A DNA stretch of 64,000 nucleotides from Acidobacteriota bacterium. Lineage in GTDB: Bacteria > Acidobacteriota > Holophagae > Holophagales > Holophagaceae. Under the pieces are notes generated by a model, which made no database searches, had not been told where the DNA came from, and saw nothing but the letters and a program-made list of their open reading frames with translations. Shown here piece by piece: positions 25,565 through 55,376 of this stretch. The first letter of the stretch is position 1. Each line of letters starts with the position of its first letter. The stretch is taken from NCBI GenBank assembly GCA_016213735.1, contig JACQZU010000021.1, positions 1-64,000 on the forward strand, in the 5' to 3' direction. The translations under genes were made by a program, and so were the position numbers.

Positions 25565-25676
25565 CACCACCAAGACACCAAGAACACCAAGAACAGCAAG
25601 GAAAACAGGCCCCCCACGCCAGGGTGCTTGCTTTTCTTGGTGAAGGCCCGCAGGGCCGCTTGGTGTCTTGGTGGTG
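25565..25676. repeat. long inverted repeat with 18-bp perfect arms
   Basis: CACCACCAAGACACCAAG at 25565-25582 is the exact reverse complement of 25659-25676; an inner CACCAAGAA also pairs with TTCTTGGTG at 25635-25643. The arms sit in a gap of 229 bases with composition unlike its neighbours, between the MTHFR fusion and the ferredoxin gene. It contains no gene. It may be a small palindromic dispersed element; a transcript hairpin acting as an attenuator is also possible. Confidence 0.85.
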
Positions 25677-25716
25677 ACATTCGTCTTTATTGCAATCTCA
25701 CGATCGCGAGCCCCCG

Positions 25717-26013
25717 TTGAGCGCCCCCGTCCAGGTGCACTTCGAACTGGAGGACCTCCTGGTGGAGGCCCCGGAGGGGACTTCGCTCCAGGCCATCGTC
25801 GAGGCCTCGGGGGCGGACGTGACCTTCGGGTGCCGCAACGGCTCCTGCGGCACCTGCCGGATCCGGGTCCTCCGGGGCCTGGAGCACTGCTCGGAGGCGG
25901 GACCCGAGGAGCGGGACTTCCTCGCCGCCCTGGGGGCTCCTCCCGATCACCGTCTCGCCTGCCAGGTTCGGCTCCTGGGGGACGTGGACATCGCCTACCT
26001 GGGGCCCCCATGA
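25717..26013 (+). CDS. 2Fe-2S plant-type ferredoxin
   Basis: A 98-residue beta-grasp ferredoxin. Cluster cysteines are C-x5-C-x2-C in FGCRNGSCGTCRIRV, with the fourth in RLACQVRLL. It overlaps metH by 4 bp (ATGA), so the two are co-translated. MetH needs a one-electron donor to re-reduce cob(II)alamin during reactivation; the linkage suggests this protein fills that role, which is inference. The start is a TTG at 25717 with only a weak GAG ahead; a TTG at 25690 is the alternative. Confidence 0.85.
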   Translation: MSAPVQVHFELEDLLVEAPEGTSLQAIVEASGADVTFGCRNGSCGTCRIRVLRGLEHCSEAGPEERDFLAALGAPPDHRLACQVRLLGDVDIAYLGPP

Positions 26014-29000
26014 GCACCCTCGAAAGCCTCCTCAAGGAAAAGGTCCTGCTCCTGGACGGGGGCATGGGCACCCAGATCTTCGCCCGCAAGCCCACGGTGG
26101 ACGACTTCGGCGGCCCGGCCCTGGAAGGCTGCATGGAGCTGTTGAACGAGCGGCGCCCCGAGTGGATCCGGGACATCCACGCCTCCTACTTCGCGGCCGG
26201 CTCGGACGCGGTGGAGACCAACACCTTCGGGTGCAACGAGGTGGTGCTAGGGGAATTCGGCCTGGCCCACCGTGTGGAGGAGCTCAACGCCCTGGCCGTG
26301 GCGCTCGCCCGGGAGGCCGCCGCGGATTTCGCGGGACCCCGCTTCGTCATCGGCTCGGTGGGCCCCGGCACCAAGCTGGTGACCCTGGGCCACGTCAGCC
26401 CCGCGGTGCTCTACGCCTCCTACCTGGCCCAGATGCGGGGCCTGGTGCGGGCGGGGGCCGACGCCATCCTCATCGAGACCTGCCAGGACCTGGGCCAGAT
26501 CAAGGCCGCGGTGCGGGCGGCCCGGGCCGCCATGGCCGAGTTGCAGCGCCGGGTCCCGCTCTGGGTCCAGGCCACGGTGGAGGCCACGGGCACCCTGCTC
26601 CTGGGCTCGGACATCGCCGCGGTCCTGACCACCCTGGAACCCCTGGGGGTGGACCTGCTGGGATTGAACTGCGCCACGGGGCCGGACGAAATGCACGCCC
26701 ACCTGGCGCACCTGGCGGCGGCCTCTCCCTTCCCCATTTCCTGCCTCCCCAATGCCGGGCTCCCCCTCAACGAGGGCGGGCGAACCGTCTACCCTCTGGG
26801 GCCCGATGCCTTCGCGGAGAAGGTCCTCGCCTCCGCCAAGGAATTCCACCTCAACGTGGTGGGCGGCTGCTGCGGCACGACCCCCGAGCACATCCGCGCC
26901 CTGAAGCAGCGCCTGGGTTCCCTGGCGCCGGTCCACCGCACCCCCGCCGCGGAACGCTCGGTGGCCAGCCTCTACCAGAGCGTGCCCCTGCGCCAGGAGC
27001 CGCGGCCCCTCATCGTGGGGGAGCGCACCAACGCCAACGGCAGCCGGCTCTTCCGGGACCTTCTGGCCCAGGAGGACTTCGACGCCATGGTGGGGGTGGC
27101 CAAGGAGCAGCAGCGCGAGGGGGCCCACCTGCTCGACGTGTGCGTGGCCTTCGTGGGCCGCGACGAGGTGAGGGACATGGAGGCCTTTCTGAAGAAGGCC
27201 GTCACCCAGGTGACCCTGCCCCTGATGATCGACTCCACCGAACTTCCCGTCATCGAGAAGGCCCTCCAGACGGCCCCGGGGAAATGCCTCGTCAACTCCA
27301 TCAACCTGGAGGACGGGGAGGCCCGGGCCCGGGCCGTGTTGGCCCTCTGCCGGGAGTATGGCGCCGGCGTGGTGGCCCTCACCATCGACGAGGAGGGCAT
27401 GGCCAAGACGGTGGAGCGAAAGCTCGCCGTGGCCCGGCGCCTGGTCGACCTCGCCGTGAACCAGGCGGGCCTGGATCCCGGGGACCTCATCCTGGACCCC
27501 CTCACCTTCACCCTGGGCTCCGGCGAGGAGGGCTTCCGGCGCAGCGCCGTGGCAACCCTGGAGGCCATTCAAGCCATCAAGGAGCGTTGGCCCGGGGTCC
27601 TCACGCTGCTGGGGGTGAGCAACGTCAGCTTCGGGCTCAAGCCCGCCGCCCGGCACCCCCTCAACTCGCTCATGCTCTATCACGCGGTGAAGGCGGGCCT
27701 GGATCTGGCGATCTTCAACGCGTCCAAGGTGATGCCCGTGGCCGGAATCCCGGAGGCAGAGCGCAGGGCATTGGAGGACCTGATCTTCGACCGGCGCGCC
27801 GAGGGCTACGATCCCCTCAAGGTGGTGCTCTCGCTCTACGAGGGCGCCACCCTGGCGGCCCGGAAGGGCTCCCGCGCCGGCCTGGGGATCGGGGAGAGGC
27901 TCCGCCTGGACATCGTGGAGGGCGACAAGCGGACCATCGTGGCGGACGTGGAGGAGGCCCGGGCCACCATCCCTCCGCTGGACATCATCAACCTCCACCT
28001 GCTGGAGGGGATGCGCGTGGTGGGCGAGCGCTTCGGGGCGGGGGAGATGCAGCTCCCCTTCGTGCTGGAGAGCGCCGAGGCCATGAAGGCAGCCATCGCC
28101 CACCTGGAACCCCACATGCCCCGGGAGGGCGGGAAGTCCAAGGGCCGCCTCCTCCTGGCCACGGTGAAGGGTGACGTCCACGACATCGGCAAGAACCTGG
28201 TGGACATCATCCTGAGCAACAACGGCTACGAGGTGCGGAACCTGGGCATCAAGCAGCCGGTGGAGGCGATCCTCAAGGCCCTGGAGGAATGGCCCGCGGA
28301 CGCCATCGGCCTGTCCGGGCTCCTCGTGAAGTCCACGGTGATCATGAAGGAGAACCTGGAGTACATGGCCTCCCTCGGCCTGCAGGTGCCGGTGATCCTG
28401 GGGGGCGCCGCCCTCACCCGGAACTTCGTCGAACAGGACTGCCAGGCGGTCTACAGCGGCCCGGTCCTCTACGCGGCGGACGCCTTCGAAGGCCTTCGCC
28501 ACATGGAGGCCCTGGCCTCCGGAGCCCCGCCGGTCTCCGCGCCCAGGGCCGCAGAGCCCGCCATCCGGGTGCTTCGCCGCGGGGAGGGCCGGGTCGCCCT
28601 GGACGGCCGGGACCGCAGCAGCTGGATCCAGGACTCGGGCCCGCCGCCGGAGCCGCCCTTCTGGGGCGCGGTGGAGCGCGCGGACCCCCTCCAGGACATC
28701 TACGCCTTCCTGGACGAGTTCGTGGTGATCCGGAACCGGTGGTCCTTCACCCAGGGCAAGCTGCCGGACGAGGCCTTCCGGGACCTCCTGGAGCAGAAGG
28801 CCGAGCCCCTGCTGGCGGCCTGGAAGGCGCGCCTGCTGGCCGAACCCCTGCTGCAGCCCCGGGCCCGTTACGGGTACTTCCCCGTCCGGGCCGAGGGGGA
28901 CCGCCTGAAGGTCTTCGATCCCGAGCGGCGGACGCAGCTCTCGGAGTGGCGCTTCCCCCGCCAGGCGGGAGGACGGCGCCTGTGCATCGCGGACTTCTTC

Positions 29001-29429
29001 ACCCCGGAGCCCGGGGCCTTCGACCTCCTGGCCCTCCAGGTGGTGACCATGGGCCAGGGCGCGGCCGAGCACGCCGCGCGCCTCTACGCCGAGAACCGCT
29101 ACGCCGACTACTTCTACTTCCACGGCCTGGCCACGGAACTCACCGAGGCCTACGCGGAGCTGCTCCACGCCCGGATCCGGCAGGAGCTGGGCCTCCAGTC
29201 CCGGGACGCCGCCGACCTGCGCCAGCTCTTCAACCAGGGGTACCAGGGCTCCCGCTACTCCTTCGGCTACCCTGCCTGCCCCGACCTGGAGGGCAACGGC
29301 CCCCTGCTGGAACTCCTGGACGCCCAGAACCTCGGCATCGCCCTCACCGAGGGCTTCCAGATGACCCCCGAATACACCACCTGCGCCCTCGTGGCCTGGC
29401 ATCCCCAGGCGAGGTACTTCTCGGTGTGA
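26010..29429 (+). CDS. metH: cobalamin-dependent methionine synthase
   Basis: A 1139-residue MetH with all four modules: homocysteine domain with intact zinc cysteines (LNCATGPDEM; VGGCCGTTPEH), pterin domain (GERTNANGSRLFRDL, MIDSTELPVIEKAL), cobalamin cap and binding domain with the cobalt-ligand histidine H724 in KGDVHDIGKNLV, and the C-terminal AdoMet reactivation domain (EGFQMTPEYTTCALVAWHP). It makes methionine from homocysteine and 5-methyl-THF. The ATG at 26010 overlaps the ferredoxin stop. About 99 bases of its 3' end plus the post-stop G run recur at 32454-32551. Confidence 0.97.
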   Translation: MSTLESLLKEKVLLLDGGMGTQIFARKPTVDDFGGPALEGCMELLNERRPEWIRDIHASYFAAGSDAVETNTFGCNEVVLGEFGLAHRVEELNALAVALAREAAADFAGPRFVIGSVGPGTKLVTLGHVSPAVLYASYLAQMRGLVRAGADAILIETCQDLGQIKAAVRAARAAMAELQRRVPLWVQATVEATGTLLLGSDIAAVLTTLEPLGVDLLGLNCATGPDEMHAHLAHLAAASPFPISCLPNAGLPLNEGGRTVYPLGPDAFAEKVLASAKEFHLNVVGGCCGTTPEHIRALKQRLGSLAPVHRTPAAERSVASLYQSVPLRQEPRPLIVGERTNANGSRLFRDLLAQEDFDAMVGVAKEQQREGAHLLDVCVAFVGRDEVRDMEAFLKKAVTQVTLPLMIDSTELPVIEKALQTAPGKCLVNSINLEDGEARARAVLALCREYGAGVVALTIDEEGMAKTVERKLAVARRLVDLAVNQAGLDPGDLILDPLTFTLGSGEEGFRRSAVATLEAIQAIKERWPGVLTLLGVSNVSFGLKPAARHPLNSLMLYHAVKAGLDLAIFNASKVMPVAGIPEAERRALEDLIFDRRAEGYDPLKVVLSLYEGATLAARKGSRAGLGIGERLRLDIVEGDKRTIVADVEEARATIPPLDIINLHLLEGMRVVGERFGAGEMQLPFVLESAEAMKAAIAHLEPHMPREGGKSKGRLLLATVKGDVHDIGKNLVDIILSNNGYEVRNLGIKQPVEAILKALEEWPADAIGLSGLLVKSTVIMKENLEYMASLGLQVPVILGGAALTRNFVEQDCQAVYSGPVLYAADAFEGLRHMEALASGAPPVSAPRAAEPAIRVLRRGEGRVALDGRDRSSWIQDSGPPPEPPFWGAVERADPLQDIYAFLDEFVVIRNRWSFTQGKLPDEAFRDLLEQKAEPLLAAWKARLLAEPLLQPRARYGYFPVRAEGDRLKVFDPERRTQLSEWRFPRQAGGRRLCIADFFTPEPGAFDLLALQVVTMGQGAAEHAARLYAENRYADYFYFHGLATELTEAYAELLHARIRQELGLQSRDAADLRQLFNQGYQGSRYSFGYPACPDLEGNGPLLELLDAQNLGIALTEGFQMTPEYTTCALVAWHPQARYFSV

Positions 29430-29685
29430 GGGGGGGCCAGGGCCCGAGCGGGGCTTCAAGCCTGGCTCGCGCCACATGATTCACAGCCCTGAAGGGACCG
29501 GAGCGCCTTTCAAAGAAGGACAGTCATCCTCCGGATCGAATCGATGTTCGACCGTAGGAGGCAGGACTGGGTTCGTTCCCTGTCCCAGCCTCCACCACTG
29601 CCCCCTTCCCATTTCAAACTTTGGAGTCCCAACAGAGTTGCCCGTGCAGGACCATCTGCCCGGAAGGATTCCCACCGGAGGGCCC

Positions 29686-32205
29686 CTATCGATCCAACAC
29701 CTTCACCAAATCCTCGAGGGGTTTCTCAAGGTATGTTGGCAATTCGCCGCGATCCCTTGCCTGGCCGAGGGCCCTTGCCACCATGCCGGCCCCGTCCCGG
29801 GCTCCAGCTAGAACCTTCGCAAATCGGGGATCCCCCCGAAGGATTTGAAATTCGGGTTCCGCCAGCAGCCAGTCATACGCAGGAGGGGCACCAACCTCGA
29901 GGCTCTTCTCAAGAATCCTGAGGGCTTCAGGGCCTTTCCCCGCCCGGACAAACGCGGGGGCTGCGAACATGACTGCATTGTTCACCATGTTTGCGTCTGC
30001 GCGGGGATCGAGTACCGACGCCAGCACCTGCCTGCCCATGGTTTCGGTCGCCGCGGTGTCGCGCTGGCCCACGGCTACCGCGAACCTGATCTGCCTCCAC
30101 AATTCTCCCTGGGTGTGAGTCTTCAAGGCCAGGGGCTCGCTCCGTCGAAGGTCCCGCTCCGCCTCCTCCAGGCGGCCAAGCTTGAGGAGGGCGAAGGCCC
30201 GGGCGCTCAATCCCCAGGGAAATTCCTCGACGTTCTTCAAGGCCCTGTCAATCACCACGAGGGCATCCTCCGGCCGCCCGAGGAGGGAGAGGCCGGAGGA
30301 GGCGTTCGCGGCCGGAGCGGTTCGGATCGGATCGAGCTCGACGGAACGGAGATTTCCGGCCACGAAAAGCGAAATGGTGCCCGGGCCCGAGAGCCACATC
30401 CCCAGGTTGGCGTGTGTCCAAGCCTCCCGAGGGGAAAAGGCCACGGCCTTCACGGCATAGTCAATCCCTCTCCCCGGGTTGGCCTGAGGAGAGAACAGTT
30501 CGACCTGGCTCAGGGCCGCCCAGGCTTCTCCACATCGCGGATCGATGCCGATGGCCCTGCGGGCCCAGGATTCGGCCTCCTTACGTGAGCCGCGCACGTC
30601 CGCCTCAAAGTCGAAACGGTAAATGAACAGGATCGCCATCCGGGCCGGAGCGGACGCAAGCGAGGGGGCGATTTCGCTGGCGCGGCTGAACATCTTCAAG
30701 GCGGCGTCGAAATCATCCGGACGGTGGTGGAGTTGGTAGCGTTCCGAGTAGAACTTCCCCTGGCGGAGCGCCAGTTCGGCTTCGGAAGAGGCCTCCGGCA
30801 TCCGAACCGGCAGGGCCGAGGGTCGGACCGTGAGACGGATTCCTTCCGCAGCCTGGCGGGCGAGATCGTTGTACATCTCCCGTGGCCCCTCGAACTGATT
30901 TCCCCAAAGGACTTTTTTCGTCTTGGCATCTATGAGTTGGACATTCAAGGCGAATCGCCCTGGCGAGGAAGTGATCGAGGTGACGATGAACGAAGAGACC
31001 TGGTACAGCGAGGCCAATTTGGTGAGGTCACCCTTGACCTTCTCCACCTCGAGGCTGTTGGGCGGCACCTTCATGTCCATCCCCTCCACCTGGGCAAGAA
31101 GGGTTGAAAGGGTTCCCGGCACTGCGTCGGCGAGGAAGGCTGCTTCCGGCGCCCCGTAGACGGTGCAGGGGAGGGCGAGCACGCTTGGAACCGCGGTGGA
31201 GGCGGCAGAAACCTTTTGGATGATCGCCACCAAGACTCCGAAGACGGTCAGGGCAGCCAAAGAAATCCCCGCGAGAGCTGGCCTCCCCATCCTTCTCCCG
31301 CCATTCACCGCGGGCATTTTGACCGGCTGCATCCCTGTGGATTCCGTTCCCCCGGAGTGTGCGTGTAGACGGGCGATTTCCAGCCTCCTGGCAAGTTCTC
31401 GGGTCGCCGGGTACCGATCCTGGGGTTCCTTCGCCAAGCACCGCTTCACGATCGCCGCCAGGGAAGGAGAGACCCCAAGGCCAAGGTCCTGCAGATCCAC
31501 CGGCTCGTCGCGCACGATCGCCGCCAAAATTTCCGCTGCACTGTCCCCGCTGAACGGCCGTCGCCCGCTCAGGGCCTCGTACAGCACGACCCCGAGGCTG
31601 AACTGGTCCGAGGGAAAATCCACCGGCCGGTTGGTCGCCTGCTCAGGGCTCATGTAGGACACCGTCCCCATCACGACGCCTGAGGCGGTGGAGGCATCCA
31701 GGGCATGCCTGGATCCAACCTCCTCCACGTGGCTGCGCTTGGCCAGTCCGAAATCGAGGATCTTCACCACGCCGTCCCGGGTCAGAAACAGGTTTTCCGG
31801 CTTTAAGTCGCGGTGGACGATCCCTCGCTCATGGGCCGCTGCCAGGCCCAAGGCGACCTGCTCACCCAATTCCGCTACCTTTTCCGCCCGCAGCGGGCCT
31901 TGGCTCATCACGGAGCGAAGGCTTTCCCCCTCCAGCAGCTCCATCACGAGGTACGGCGAATCCCCATGCCTTCCCAGTTCGTGGACCCCCAGGATGTTCG
32001 GGTGGTTCAGCGCCCCCGCGGCCCGGGCTTCCTGTTCGAACCGCTTGAGCCGTTCCCGGTCTCCGGCCAGGTCCTCCGGCAGCATCTTGATGGCCACGTC
32101 ACGCCCGAGTTTCGGGTCCCTCGCCTTGTAAACCACGCCCATTCCGCCTGCTCCCAGGGGGGCGAGGATCTCGTAGGAGCCTAGGCGGGTGCCGGGGGCG
32201 ATCAT
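29686..32205 (-). CDS. membrane Ser/Thr protein kinase with TolB-like and TPR regions
   Basis: An 839-residue PknB-type kinase: kinase domain about 10-270 (LGAGGMGVVYKARD, VAIKMLPED, HRDLKPENLF, DFGLAKRS, GTVSYMSPEQ), a transmembrane segment near 310-330, a TolB/adenylate-cyclase-associated-like region (about 335-460) and a helical-repeat tail with TPR character. The catalytic residues are intact. Codon and base use are less G+C-biased than in the flanking metH, and the gene lies between metH and a duplicated metH 3' end, so it looks inserted. It is convergent with metH. Start is ATG 32205 (MIAPGTRLGSYEIL). The target is unknown. Confidence 0.92.
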   Translation of the reverse strand: MIAPGTRLGSYEILAPLGAGGMGVVYKARDPKLGRDVAIKMLPEDLAGDRERLKRFEQEARAAGALNHPNILGVHELGRHGDSPYLVMELLEGESLRSVMSQGPLRAEKVAELGEQVALGLAAAHERGIVHRDLKPENLFLTRDGVVKILDFGLAKRSHVEEVGSRHALDASTASGVVMGTVSYMSPEQATNRPVDFPSDQFSLGVVLYEALSGRRPFSGDSAAEILAAIVRDEPVDLQDLGLGVSPSLAAIVKRCLAKEPQDRYPATRELARRLEIARLHAHSGGTESTGMQPVKMPAVNGGRRMGRPALAGISLAALTVFGVLVAIIQKVSAASTAVPSVLALPCTVYGAPEAAFLADAVPGTLSTLLAQVEGMDMKVPPNSLEVEKVKGDLTKLASLYQVSSFIVTSITSSPGRFALNVQLIDAKTKKVLWGNQFEGPREMYNDLARQAAEGIRLTVRPSALPVRMPEASSEAELALRQGKFYSERYQLHHRPDDFDAALKMFSRASEIAPSLASAPARMAILFIYRFDFEADVRGSRKEAESWARRAIGIDPRCGEAWAALSQVELFSPQANPGRGIDYAVKAVAFSPREAWTHANLGMWLSGPGTISLFVAGNLRSVELDPIRTAPAANASSGLSLLGRPEDALVVIDRALKNVEEFPWGLSARAFALLKLGRLEEAERDLRRSEPLALKTHTQGELWRQIRFAVAVGQRDTAATETMGRQVLASVLDPRADANMVNNAVMFAAPAFVRAGKGPEALRILEKSLEVGAPPAYDWLLAEPEFQILRGDPRFAKVLAGARDGAGMVARALGQARDRGELPTYLEKPLEDLVKVLDR

Positions 32206-32423
32206 TATGGACCTTGGGGTCTTGCAGCATTCTACTCACCGCCCGAATTCGATGACCGCTTTTCGGAAGATGCCCGGTTCGAACCCAGGTATGACAGCTG
32301 GGATTTGACACATGTTTTTTCCCTCAGGTCTTGACCATGGTTGGTGAGGCGGCGGAACACGCAACGGGCCCATGGGTCGAACCGCTCCCCGCTTGGATCT
32401 GGGAGGACCTGGGGCTTCAGACC

Positions 32424-32551
32424 CTGGATGATGCCTGCCTCGGCACCGCCCTTACCGAGGGCTTCCAGATGACCCCCGAATACACCACCTGCGCCCTCGT
32501 GGCCTGGCATCCCCGGCGAGGTACTTCTCGGTGTGAGGGGGGGCCAGGGCC
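32424..32551 (+). pseudogene. duplicated, broken metH 3' end
   Basis: Bases 32454-32551 repeat the last codons of metH and 15 bases after its stop (29346-29444), nearly identical, with one base lost in CATCCCC(A)GGCG that shifts the frame before the natural stop. Upstream, 32424-32453 still encodes a diverged metH-like stretch (LDDACLGTALTEG), different from the resident copy, as if from a related metH. There is no start codon of its own. The rest of the gap between kinase and response regulator (32206-32639) shows no gene. Confidence 0.85.
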
Positions 32552-50435: not shown

Positions 50436-51130
50436 GGGTCGCGGTCCCCGTCTTCCCGGGCTCCAACTGCGACCACGACGCCCTCCACGCCTGCGGGACC
50501 GTCATGGGCTGGGACACCCGGGCCGTCTGGCACCAGGAGAGCCGCCTTCCCGAGGGCACGGAGCTGGTCTTCGTGCCGGGGGGCTTCAGCTACGGGGACT
50601 ACCTGCGCTGCGGGGCCATCGCGGCCCTCAGCCCCATCATGGCGGACGTGCGGCGTTTCGCGGAGGCGGGCGGTCTGGTGCTGGGGGTCTGCAATGGCTT
50701 CCAGATCCTCTGCGAGGCAGGCCTCCTGCCGGGGGCCCTGCTCCGCAACGCCTCCCTCCGCTTCATCCACCGGACCGTCCACCTCCGGGTGGAACGGGCG
50801 GACCTTCCCTTCACCTCCGCCCTGAAACCCGGCCAGGTCTTCGCCGTCCCCATCGCCCACGCCGAGGGGAATTTCGAATTGGACGACGCGGAACTGGCGG
50901 ACCTCGAGGCTCGGGGAGGGGTCGCCTTCCGCTACTGCGCCCCCGATGGCCGGACGGGGGAGGCCTTCGTGCCCAACGGCAGCAGCCACGGCATCGCCGG
51001 CATCGTGAACACCCGGGGAAACGTGCTGGGAATGATGCCCCACCCGGAACGGGCGGTGGAGCCCGCGATGGGGGGCGTGGGAGGCCTGGGGATCTTCGAA
51101 AGCCTTGCCCGCACCTTCGCGACAGCCTGA
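50432..51130 (+). CDS. purQ: phosphoribosylformylglycinamidine synthase subunit PurQ
   Basis: A 232-residue glutaminase subunit that supplies ammonia to PurL. It shows the class-I amidotransferase triad: the nucleophile cysteine in VLGVCNGFQIL, and histidine and glutamate in MMPHPERAVEP, plus FVPGGFSYGDYLR. Its ATG lies in the purS stop (ATGA), so the two are translationally coupled. Confidence 0.96.
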   Translation: MRVAVPVFPGSNCDHDALHACGTVMGWDTRAVWHQESRLPEGTELVFVPGGFSYGDYLRCGAIAALSPIMADVRRFAEAGGLVLGVCNGFQILCEAGLLPGALLRNASLRFIHRTVHLRVERADLPFTSALKPGQVFAVPIAHAEGNFELDDAELADLEARGGVAFRYCAPDGRTGEAFVPNGSSHGIAGIVNTRGNVLGMMPHPERAVEPAMGGVGGLGIFESLARTFATA

Positions 51131-51221: not shown

Positions 51222-52082
51222 ATGAGCGAACACGAATCCAAAATTCTCCAAGTCTTTTCCAGTGGCCCCCTCAAGCTCGTGGTCCTCAAGCGGGATCCGG
51301 TGCCCCCGCGGGCCCTACCCTCCCGGGACGCCTGGACCCTGATCCTGCCCGGCTCGGCCGTGCGGGTCCTCACGGGGGGCGACAAGGAGGAGGGGATCAT
51401 CCGGCGCGGAGACCTCGCCCTGCTCCTGCCCGGATTCGGGCACACCCTGGAACGCCACCAGCCCTCCCAGCCCTTCGGCTTCACCGCCCTCCAGCTGGAG
51501 GGACCCTTTCCGGAGCCTCTCCTGGGCACCCTTCAGCACCCGCCCCGCAAGTGGCAGGAGCAGAGCTTCGCCGTGCTGCGCAGCCAGTCCCTCAAGCAGC
51601 TCTTCGGGATCTTCACCGCGGAGCTGAGCCACCCGGAGGGCGTGCAGCTCATGACCCGGGAACTCTTCCTCATCCTTCTGGGAGCCGAGCTGGGCCGCCT
51701 GTCCGAGAAGGAGGACCGGAGCCGCTTCCCCTACCGCCTCAACCGCTCCACCCTCCAGGTGGTGCTGGACCACATGGAGGCCCAGATCGGGCAGAAGAAC
51801 AGCGTCCCCGAGCTGGCCTCCATGGCCAAGTGCACCCCGGACCACTTCATCCGCCTCTTCCGGGAGGCCACCGGCACCACGCCCCACCAGTACCTCATCG
51901 AGCGCCGCCTCCAGCGCGCCGTGCAGCTCCTGGCCAACGGCGAGCGCCCCTCCGACGTGGCCACCATGCTGGGCTTCTACGACGCCAGCGCCTTCACCCG
52001 CGCCTTCAAGCGCCGCTTCGACGTCCCCCCCAGCCAGTACGCCCAGGAAGCCTACGACCGGCAGTTCCCGAAGAAGGATTGA
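51222..52082 (+). CDS. AraC-family transcriptional regulator
   Basis: A 286-residue regulator: an N-terminal cupin-like sensing domain (about 20-120, IIRRGDLALLLPGFGHTLER) and a C-terminal AraC double helix-turn-helix (about 185-280, SVPELASMAKCTPDHFIRLF, VATMLGFYDASAFTRAFKRR). The inducer is unknown. The ATG at 51222 starts after an A+T-rich promoter-like stretch (51140-51185). Its last 64 codons are duplicated 1740 bases downstream. A short CCCGG/CCGGG hairpin with TTTTCG follows the stop. Confidence 0.92.
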   Translation: MSEHESKILQVFSSGPLKLVVLKRDPVPPRALPSRDAWTLILPGSAVRVLTGGDKEEGIIRRGDLALLLPGFGHTLERHQPSQPFGFTALQLEGPFPEPLLGTLQHPPRKWQEQSFAVLRSQSLKQLFGIFTAELSHPEGVQLMTRELFLILLGAELGRLSEKEDRSRFPYRLNRSTLQVVLDHMEAQIGQKNSVPELASMAKCTPDHFIRLFREATGTTPHQYLIERRLQRAVQLLANGERPSDVATMLGFYDASAFTRAFKRRFDVPPSQYAQEAYDRQFPKKD

Positions 52083-52089
52083 GATCGGA

Positions 52090-52109
52090 CCCGGCGGCCG
52101 GGCCTTTTC
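52090..52109 (+). terminator. weak terminator after the AraC gene
   Basis: CCCGG-CGG-CCGGG hairpin followed by CCTTTTCG, just after the stop codon. Confidence 0.45.
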
Positions 52110-52166
52110 GATTTTCGAATTTCGAGGCGGGGTGGCGGGGGCGACGTTCGGCCGCCCCTGCGGGTC

Positions 52167-53570
52167 TCACTGGGCTTGGGCGAACCAGGGCCAGTCGCCT
52201 GTCGCCGGATCGAGTGTGCGTGGATCCTCCTTGGACCGGCCCAGCACCCCGCCCTGATCCTTCCCGTCCCAGCCGGTGCTGTAGAGAACGAAGGCGCCCT
52301 CCGGCGTGCGCCGGTAGACCAAGGGGCCGCCGGTCACCAAATCCCTGGGGAGTTCCCGAATGAATTCCGGCACCAGGACCTCCAGGCGCTCGGGAAAATC
52401 CCCCCTCGCGAGCCGGTGCCGCTCCAACGCGCAGGCCACACCGGCCAGGTCCACCGAGGCCTGCAGGTGGGCGATGCGCTGGACCTGGGCCAGGAGGGCT
52501 GGCATGGCAAGCCTGGCGAGGGCGAGGTCCCGATGGCGGCGCTCGAAGGCCGCCATCCTGCTTTGGGGGGTTCCCCCCTTGGTCAACACCCGTCTCCCAC
52601 CCTTTGGAAAAACGTCTATTGTCAGTTCGGTTTCGAATCGGGCGAGTTCGAGGAGATTCCTATAGATCCAGCCCCGGTACAAGCGCCCGACGATGCCTGT
52701 CGAGGCTGCCAGCCGATCCCGGGTGCTGATCGCCTCCTTAGATAGCTGGAAGGGGCCGACCCCGGCTTCAACCACGGAACGGAGGACATCAATTCCGTGC
52801 AATCGCTCTCCTTCCCAAGCCAGCCTCGCACTCGAGAGCAGATCAACCCCGGTGAGAAGAGCTTGGATTTCTGAAAGCTGGGCCTCTCCCCAGCGGTGGT
52901 CCGCCAGCCCCTCCCAGACGGGTTGGAGGACCAATCCCACCAGCGAGGTTCTGAGCAGCAATGGGATCAGTTCGGGTTCGCCCTTCAGGTGTTCCGCGAT
53001 CCGCAGGCAGGTCCCGACATCCCCCGCCGCCCCTTCTGGGGTGCCCTGAGTCAAGCGCAGGAGGGCCCGAAGCCGAAGGGTCTTTGCGGCATCCCGGAAC
53101 CCCAGCAGGCCTCCAGGTTCCCAGGCAGCGTGGTCCACAGGAAGCCTACATCCACTTCTGCGGCTGGCACGGTCCAGTTCGGCCAAGGTAGGTTCCAAGG
53201 GCCCCAGCAGACCTTCGAGATCTTGGATCCCAATCGATTGCGCATACCCCGCTAAATCCGCCCGGCGGCCCTCACGCCAATCCCCCCGGACGGCATCCAA
53301 ATTCGGGAGCTTCAGGGCCTTGAAACGGGGATCAAGGTCTTTCCCGCGGATGCCTCCTGCCACGAGAGGGTCAAGGGCGAAGTTCTCTTCGTCTGGGACG
53401 GGTGGCGGGTCCAGCACAGCCCACTCGAAGCGATCGCCCATCGCTTCCCGCTGAGCCTTCCAAGACAACCAAGCACTTTTCCCGGTCCCAAGGTAGATCC
53501 CGTAACCCACTGCGACCACGGCGACGACGGTGAACAGGATCATGCCAAAGATCAAAATAAGGCGACGCAT
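52167..53570 (-). CDS. membrane-anchored hypothetical protein in a duplicated-flank insertion
   Basis: A 467-residue protein of a kind seen in Acidobacteria and Planctomycetes but of no known function. An N-terminal transmembrane segment (about 5-27, LILIFGMILFTVVAVVAVGY) anchors a large helical extracytoplasmic domain. The C-terminus reads like a type-II-secretion pseudopilin tail (VTGGPLVYRRTPEGAFVLYS, GWDGKDQGG). Base composition is less G+C-rich than in its neighbours. It lies reverse to the AraC gene and exactly between that gene and a copy of its 3' end, so it appears to have been inserted. Confidence 0.82.
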   Translation of the reverse strand: MRRLILIFGMILFTVVAVVAVGYGIYLGTGKSAWLSWKAQREAMGDRFEWAVLDPPPVPDEENFALDPLVAGGIRGKDLDPRFKALKLPNLDAVRGDWREGRRADLAGYAQSIGIQDLEGLLGPLEPTLAELDRASRRSGCRLPVDHAAWEPGGLLGFRDAAKTLRLRALLRLTQGTPEGAAGDVGTCLRIAEHLKGEPELIPLLLRTSLVGLVLQPVWEGLADHRWGEAQLSEIQALLTGVDLLSSARLAWEGERLHGIDVLRSVVEAGVGPFQLSKEAISTRDRLAASTGIVGRLYRGWIYRNLLELARFETELTIDVFPKGGRRVLTKGGTPQSRMAAFERRHRDLALARLAMPALLAQVQRIAHLQASVDLAGVACALERHRLARGDFPERLEVLVPEFIRELPRDLVTGGPLVYRRTPEGAFVLYSTGWDGKDQGGVLGRSKEDPRTLDPATGDWPWFAQAQ

Positions 53571-53630
53571 GATGTGATAATACTAATTCCTTTTACTCCC
53601 TCGCAACCAAGGCCCGGGGCAAGGTTCCAA

Positions 53631-53822
53631 TACCTCATCGAGCGCCGCCTCCAGCGCGCCGTGCAGCTCCTGGCCAACGGCGAACGCCCCTCCGACGTGG
53701 CCACCATGCTGGGCTTCTACGACGCCAGCGCCTTCACCCGCGCCTTCAAGCGCCGCTTCGATGTCCCCCCCAGCCAGTACGCCCAGGAAGCCTACGACCG
53801 GCAGTTCCCGAAGAAGGATTGA
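53631..53822 (+). pseudogene. duplicated AraC-gene 3' end (64 codons)
   Basis: Bases 53631-53823 match 51891-52083 with two mismatches in 193, at an offset of exactly 1740. The copy covers the second helix-turn-helix through the stop codon, with no sequence of the first part. The frame is open back to a GTG at 53574, which would give an 82-residue HTH-only peptide, but that upstream part is unrelated to the AraC protein. The two mismatches indicate recent duplication. Confidence 0.92.
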
Positions 53823-54083
53823 GGGGAACCCGCCCGTCGGACCCCTGCCGGGTTTCGAATTTCGGTTTTTGGGCTGCGCCAGGCCGAACCCGGCCCGGCC
53901 CTGGCCATCCCACCCCGAAGGGGCGGGCTCGCATCCGCGTTTTCGAGTCGATTCCGGGGACATGGCCCGCGGAGAGACGTGAGGGGATGAAGGTCCGCTT
54001 CGCCACGCCCCCCGATTGAGGAACACTGTCCCCGAGGTCTCCGATGAATTCAACGGGAGGGGATCTCGCGGAGGAGGCGTGCG

Positions 54084-55376
54084 ATGAACGTCCCGGCGGT
54101 GGTCATCCTCGTGGGCCTTCTCGTGTTCCTGGCCCATGCCCTGGATGACCTGTTCGTCCGCACCAAAGTGCCCGACGTGCTGCTCCTGCTGGTGCTTGGA
54201 ATCCTTCTCGGACCGGTGTCCCACCTGGTGAGCCCGGGCTCCTTCGGCCAGGTGGGCCCTGTCTTCACGGCCATCACCCTGGTCGTGATCCTGTTCGAAG
54301 GCGGCCTGGGGCTGGACCTGCGGCAGCTGCTCCTCAGCCTTCGGGCCAGCACGCTGCTGTGCCTGCTCAATTTCCTGGCCTCGGTGGCGGTGGTTGCGCC
54401 CCTGGGGCATTGGGGCCTGGGCCTGTCCTGGATCTCCTCGGCCACCCTGGGCGCGATCCTGGGCGGCACCTCCTCGGCGGTCGTGATTCCGCTGGTCCGG
54501 CGCATCGATCTGGGCGAGAACACCCGCACCGCGCTCACGGTCGAATCGGCCCTCAGCGACGTGCTGGTCATCGTCGTGGCCCTGGGCCTCCTGGAGGCAC
54601 AACGCGGGGGCGGCCTGGCGGTGGGCCGGCTCCTGGGCAGCATGGGCGCATCCTTCGCCCTGGCGGGGCTTCTCGGGGTCTGCGGCGGGGTCCTCTGGTC
54701 CCTGGCCCTCAACCGGGTCCACGGGCTCCAGAATTCGATCCTGACCACCCCCGCCTTCGTGCTCGTGCTGTACGGCCTGACGGAACTGGCCGGCTTCAGC
54801 GGAGCGATCGCGGCCCTGGCCACGGGGATCACCCTGGGAAATGTGGATCGGATCCCCGCCGCGGTGAACCGCCGCTGGTTCGTGTCCCTGGAAGTCCTGA
54901 ACGCCACGGAACGGGGCGTGTTCTCCGAACTGGTCTTCCTGCTCAAGACCTTCTTCTTCGTCTACATCGGGCTGTCGCTCTCCGTCTCCGGCTGGTGGAC
55001 CCCCCTGGTGGGGCTCGGGATCACCGTGGCGTTGTATGCCGCCCGGGTTCCCGTGGTGAGGCTGGCCGTCCAGGATTCGGTCCCCCGCAAGGAGGCCCTG
55101 GTCCTCGCCATGATGAACCCGAAAGGACTCGCCGCCGCCGTGGTGGCCACCCTTCCGGCCCAGATGGGGCTGCCCGGCGGAGAGGTCATCCGCGATGCCG
55201 CCTACACCGTGGTCTTCTGCAGCGTGGTCCTGACCAGCGGCCTGGTGTTCCTGCAGGGCCGGGGGTGGCTGGACGGCCTGGGGGCCTGGCTGTTCAAGAG
55301 GTTCCAGGATCCGGGCCCCGGCACCCCCCCCGAAGCTCCCACCCCTGACTCGGCTCCGGAAACCCGGAGCCGTTGA
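54084..55376 (+). CDS. cation:proton antiporter (CPA family)
   Basis: A 430-residue membrane antiporter with about 12 transmembrane segments, of the monovalent cation/H+ exchanger family. Motifs include FVRTKVPDVLLLLVLGILLG, ILFEGGLGLDL, GGTSSAVVIPLV and the transport-site region VESALSDVLVIV. It exchanges Na+ or K+ for protons at the inner membrane. The tail (from about 405) is Pro-rich and disordered. GGAGGAGG lies 9 bases before the ATG. The gap after the duplicated AraC end (53823-54083) has no other gene. Confidence 0.92.
   Translation: MNVPAVVILVGLLVFLAHALDDLFVRTKVPDVLLLLVLGILLGPVSHLVSPGSFGQVGPVFTAITLVVILFEGGLGLDLRQLLLSLRASTLLCLLNFLASVAVVAPLGHWGLGLSWISSATLGAILGGTSSAVVIPLVRRIDLGENTRTALTVESALSDVLVIVVALGLLEAQRGGGLAVGRLLGSMGASFALAGLLGVCGGVLWSLALNRVHGLQNSILTTPAFVLVLYGLTELAGFSGAIAALATGITLGNVDRIPAAVNRRWFVSLEVLNATERGVFSELVFLLKTFFFVYIGLSLSVSGWWTPLVGLGITVALYAARVPVVRLAVQDSVPRKEALVLAMMNPKGLAAAVVATLPAQMGLPGGEVIRDAAYTVVFCSVVLTSGLVFLQGRGWLDGLGAWLFKRFQDPGPGTPPEAPTPDSAPETRSR

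Follow-up and report, generated by a model that had tools for sequence, protein, structure and literature searches.

In icd, e14 and phage 21 replace the gene end with the element's own version, and the old end is displaced as a long direct repeat. Other gene-end duplications have been attributed to homologous recombination. In E. coli, 56 of 60 clones had the end of lacZ duplicated (109 to 950 bp in the 14 that were sequenced), and these duplications were inferred to arise by a single crossover of circles from which part of the homologous segment was missing (PMC3240628). Circles and homologous recombination have also been proposed for Rhs tips (Jackson et al. 2009, PMC2935791), and a like logic for T6SS effector modules (PMC5361080). 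In merodiploids obtained by transformation, a donor fragment pairs at two places and a duplication results (PMC3784515).

We analyzed a stretch of 64,000 nucleotides (hereafter the window) from an Acidobacteriota bacterium of the family Holophagaceae (contig JACQZU010000021.1). It contains an intact gene for an AraC-family regulator, the 3' part of which is repeated beyond a foreign-looking cargo gene, X; this is the structure expected of gene-end displacement by homology-facilitated illegitimate recombination (HFIR) or by a single crossover. The features of the locus are listed below, with R and R' denoting the two copies of the gene end and A and B the flanks downstream of them.

51222 to 52082, forward strand: AraC-family regulator gene, the whole host gene (HTH_18, E = 3.6e-22; HTH_AraC); the ORF is open from a TTG at 51105
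51887 to 52083, forward strand: R, the AraC 3' end including the stop, on the intact gene; direct repeat, 98% over 197 nt
52084 to 52166, no strand: A flank, from the AraC stop to the X stop, a spacer with a terminator-like hairpin and TTTCGAATTTCG
52167 to 53570, reverse strand: X, the inserted gene, 467 aa, with an N-terminal hydrophobic helix (by inspection) and a weakly GspG-like C-terminal part
53571 to 53626, no strand: 56-nt stretch from the X start to R', holding the left junction of R', with CCARTACC common to both copies at the junction
53627 to 53823, forward strand: R', the displaced AraC 3' end; direct repeat of R
53824 to 53973, no strand: B flank, downstream of R', with TTTCGAATTTCG at 53853 and local similarity to the A flank

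Compared with the icd/e14 elements, there is no integrase and there are no phage genes, the unit measures 1.7 kb and the host genes are many. The locus shares one homologous end and a gene-end duplication with the HFIR and single-crossover events (PMC3240628; PMC5361080), but those were laboratory events under selection, whereas the scars described here are natural and lie at several loci of one genome. Merodiploids (PMC3784515) are tandem duplications of 100 to 900 kb between repeats and have no foreign insert. As in Rhs C-terminal displacement, the resident 3' end would be displaced by an incoming one that brings cargo with it, and would be left downstream as a fragment; here, however, the hosts are ordinary genes (AraC, MetH and a heme-protein-like gene), the protein keeps the same tip, and a single unrelated gene makes up the cargo. 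We met no Rhs core gene with a variable toxin tip at the AraC locus, where the host is the AraC regulator.

Alignment and blastn confirmed the original prediction that 193 AraC bases recur at an offset of exactly 1740 with two mismatches (51891-52083 and 53631-53823; E about 1e-97). The mismatches, G/A at 51944 (GAG/GAA) and C/T at 52022 (GAC/GAT), are both synonymous, and the end of the AraC protein is unchanged between the copies. High identity starts at 51887 and 53627 and stops 1 to 4 nt past the stop codon. Between the copies lie 85 nt, one reverse-strand gene and 56 nt, and the host gene is kept whole, both as described before. X is the sole gene of the unit, and the foreign look ascribed to it is borne out by its GC3 of 0.729, at the 5th percentile of 652 called genes (median 0.88). 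R' is part of an 82-aa ORF with a GTG start (53574-53822) that includes part of the HTH; no residual similarity to AraC was found in the 56 nt before R', and no inverted repeat surrounds it. The unit lacks a transposase, terminal inverted repeats and a short target duplication, the duplication being 193 nt long. A domain search gave neither an integrase nor a transposase in the unit, and no att site was found there.

We compared the AraC locus with those of other genera of the same family, in which the AraC orthologues are 75 to 86% identical. Downstream of AraC, where the genes of the relatives could be matched, there is a small secreted-protein-like gene and then an amidase gene. In the window, an antiporter gene with typical GC3 (54084-55376) stands between R' and this pair. 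The B flank probably represents the sequence that originally lay downstream of the resident gene. TTTCGAATTTCG occurs at 52113 and 53853, spaced exactly 1740, with an in-register 12-mer common to the A and B flanks. The flanks resemble each other beyond the shuffled expectation (rank 4 of 801 gene downstreams); other terminators of the genome score similarly, and the resemblance is at most suggestive. TTTCGAATTTCG was considered as an insertion signal and rejected; it is a spacer motif found in several intergenic regions of the genome (window positions 52113 and 53853, contigs C16 and C7).

X was absent from the other family-level AraC neighborhoods that we read, except in one genome, G009 (genus g10). 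There, an X gene of the same clade lies convergent to and 3' of AraC, and AraC has no repeat. Because this X adjoins AraC without a duplication, X may have been at the AraC locus before the repeat arose. In the tree, the window X falls in a clade with the G009 X and with Geothrix-type X genes from another locus (support 98/95); at the inner fork it pairs with the X of another genus and not with that of G009, with support of only 91/87.

The window contains a second case, at MetH, which the original prediction had missed:

25668 to 29429, forward strand: MetH, the whole host gene, start as listed; its C-terminal part matches same-family orthologues at up to 67%
29330 to 29444, forward strand: R, the last 100 nt of MetH plus 15 nt past the stop; 97.4% repeat, offset 3108
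29686 to 32205, reverse strand: inserted gene for an 839-aa Ser/Thr protein kinase with TPR-like repeats (Pkinase, E = 7e-50; GC3 at the 8th percentile)
32331 to 32437, forward strand: decayed remnant of MetH preceding R', in frame with internal deletions (alignment score 31.1 versus 10.8 ± 1.5 for shuffled sequence)
32438 to 32551, forward strand: R', with one base deleted relative to R

The true start of MetH is probably downstream of the listed ORF start. The two copies differ by 2 bases plus an indel, and the remnant fits the MetH of its own genome (31.1) better than that of any relative (at most 19.3). Because a decayed remnant of the genome's own type precedes R', the duplication would once have been longer and its core exchanged since, and the sequence thus suggests an older, longer duplication that was later homogenised at the MetH locus.

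Our survey for further cases covered 2.03 Mb, or 57% of the draft genome (28 contigs), and considered direct, non-tandem repeats with at least 90% identity and a spacing of 0.7 to 15 kb. Only AraC, MetH and a locus on contig C7 were of this kind; repeats of lower identity were mostly paralogous or tandem genes and were discarded. At the C7 locus, positions 143557-143825 of a 92-aa CxxCH heme-protein-like host gene recur at 147122-147390, and a 937-aa kelch/Ig gene lies reversed between them. The C7 copy has lost the ATG, and the histidine of CxxCH has become arginine (L165 3554-7400, corresponding to C7 143554-147400). The cargo is reversed in all three of these long cases. A first scan of the genome contigs with X alone found nothing.

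We also searched gene by gene for copied ends among 1426 called genes, setting aside paralogues and repeat arrays by inspection. About seven non-paralogous 3'-end copies were found downstream of their genes, and there were no comparable copies of 5' ends among the same genes. Short spacers separate the copies at C16:131076 (48 nt), C16:167773 and C13:208747, and C16:51411 is an 80-bp tandem array at a gene end; at these four sites, the copies of the 3' ends lie 48 to 274 nt downstream of the originals and in some cases enclose palindromic REP-like repeats. Across the cases, R ranges from about 28 to 269 nt, each host gene and each R sequence differs, and in most cases identity between the copies breaks off close to the stop codon (from about -10 to +15 nt). 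No unit contains a recombinase, and no core shared across the R sequences was seen. A tRNA-Asn 3' end with its terminator is also repeated on C16, in tandem units of ~290 bp with a palindromic element (L231 9226-10030).

Independent examples of gene-end copies occur in relatives as well. In G023, a glycosyltransferase (GT) gene and X form a gene-end copy structure that is absent in G029 of the same genus. The GT pair seems to be older than the divergence of G023 and G029, and the changes on its R' side are close to neutral expectation (7 of 13 synonymous). The inverted repeat TGGCCGCAGCAC at the G023 junction is also present downstream of the same gene in G029. In G012, the last 78 nt of MetH and the last 29 nt of AraC are copied downstream after short palindromic spacers (L203 2349-2591; L036).

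The differences between the copies are mainly synonymous. In eight copy pairs, this holds for 39 of the 50 base differences, with a neutral expectation of 0.19 to 0.43 per gene according to the mutation model (P < 1e-5), and in the six pairs of the genome itself for 19 of 23 (P = 1.5e-5, transition- and GC>AT-biased neutral model). The clearest pair is that at C16:131076, where the copies span 18 codons with the stop and have 10 differences, 9 synonymous and 1 changing an amino acid; the stop codon differs. There are 8 differences between the cyt copies and 2 between those of AraC, both of the latter synonymous and by themselves too few for a decision. An end of identity near the stop codon is as expected if two strains share coding but not downstream sequence. 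Because of this and the synonymous excess, the copies have the appearance of two alleles under selection, one incoming and one resident, and not that of a gene end and a decaying duplicate.

We therefore consider it probable that these structures are scars of 3'-end displacement, left by homologous recombination of transferred DNA with a gene end. DNA from a related strain would bring an AraC 3' end and, downstream of it on the opposite strand, the cargo X. The first junction would be homologous and lie within the shared coding sequence of the resident gene; at the second, the far end of the cargo would meet the resident gene at a point inside the coding sequence, because a circle had entered by single crossover or because the second end was joined illegitimately. 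The product would be a host gene with a full 3' end, followed by the cargo and, beyond it, by the old 3' end, now displaced, with the old downstream sequence. Such events may be kept by selection because the host gene remains whole, and RecA should be able to excise X cleanly via the flanking repeats. Transferred DNA as the source is an inference, as are the choice of the copy that came in and the distinction between a circle and a one-sided event. Uptake by transformation is possible judging from the gene content; ComEC is present in this genome and also in the E. coli control, a species not known for natural competence. The proposal that the AraC repeat arose by single-crossover (Campbell) integration, or by integration into a gene 3' end with restoration, is largely right and partly supported: the end product is as predicted and is found again at other genes, and the differences between the copies resemble those between alleles, but X also stands at the AraC gene of G009 without a repeat. 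We extend the proposal to a probable recurrent process of 3'-end displacement.

Several other processes could leave a gene end on both sides of a cargo. An old duplication of the host end might have diverged except for a near-identical core kept uniform by RecA-mediated conversion from the functional gene, for example after formation of a tandem AraC-X unit from which the second X was later lost. Such local duplication would explain why the MetH R' is preceded by decayed MetH of its own type, why the A and B flanks are alike but diverged, and why X is also found at AraC in G009. The synonymous excess fits it poorly, since conversion followed by drift would by our own estimate, which was not computed with a tool, give about half synonymous differences and not the 78% observed. 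Moreover, no remnant of X was noticed after R', the flank of the C7 R' is unlike that of R, and there is no repeat in G009. We regard local duplication as rather unlikely. Copying during repair meets the same difficulty: if replication broke near a terminator and template switching placed about 30 to 270 nt of upstream sequence beyond a captured fragment, the copy should decay neutrally, which the synonymous excess contradicts. The palindromic repeats in several of the short spacers and, at the G023 junction, 12 bp that repeat the R' end in inverted orientation are what would favor template switching, which we nevertheless judge very improbable.

Site-specific integration at gene 3' ends in the manner of e14 in icd, with a tyrosine recombinase such as an integron integrase acting in trans, would agree with the preference for 3' ends, seen also at tRNA-Asn, and the genome does have a match to the integron integrase model TIGR02249 (454 bits, cut-off 265; contig C3 31205-32146, near the contig end). 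A site-specific enzyme is hard to reconcile with hosts and R sequences that all differ, with R lengths of about 28 to 269 nt, with units that carry no recombinase and with a spacer of just 48 nt. In addition, no shared core was seen, and on inspection no attC-like site was noticed beside X and none was obvious in any unit. This explanation is very improbable in our view. An assembly artefact might be suspected in a draft genome of 28 contigs with repeats close to short-read length. It is made unlikely by the several base differences between the copies and by the occurrence of similar structures at other loci and in genomes that were assembled independently; every junction is also unique, and we give an artefact next to no credence. 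Displacement of a resident gene end by recombination with transferred DNA remains the reading that we prefer.

A broader proposal, which we offer tentatively and which may well reach too far, is that members of the Holophagaceae acquire single genes and palindromic repeats time and again through 3'-end displacement, at ordinary protein genes and perhaps at tRNA genes too, with no need of mobile-element machinery of their own; the scars would be readable genome-wide and the cargo could leave again via RecA. The entry of single genes without a mobile-element signature is usually invisible afterwards, and displaced ends provide a readable scar. The scar marks the insertion, shows one homologous end and gives a minimum length of homology (about 28 to 270 nt here), and scars can be counted and be dated by synonymous change. 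If the process is general, gene gain by a single crossover or a one-sided event could be looked for in any genome, and we predict that the cargo can be lost again.

X has no Pfam match, and its similarity to TIGR01710, in a GspG-pseudopilin-like stretch, is weak (E = 4.5e-4, far below the cut-off). Homologues with about 34 to 51% identity have a patchy distribution among the Holophagaceae genomes (16 of 77) and are also present in Verrucomicrobiota. Among the X loci examined (about 57), a flanking repeat of a gene end was found only in the window and in G023, and X was rejected as a self-mobile element. Several Holophagaceae X genes directly follow sigma/anti-sigma-like genes (L050, L053, L054 and L105), which hints at an envelope-related role. 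Repeats at X loci of Verrucomicrobiota differ in build from the AraC/X case and were set aside. Three X homologues are arranged in tandem on a Limisphaerales contig (L095, 5292-12715).
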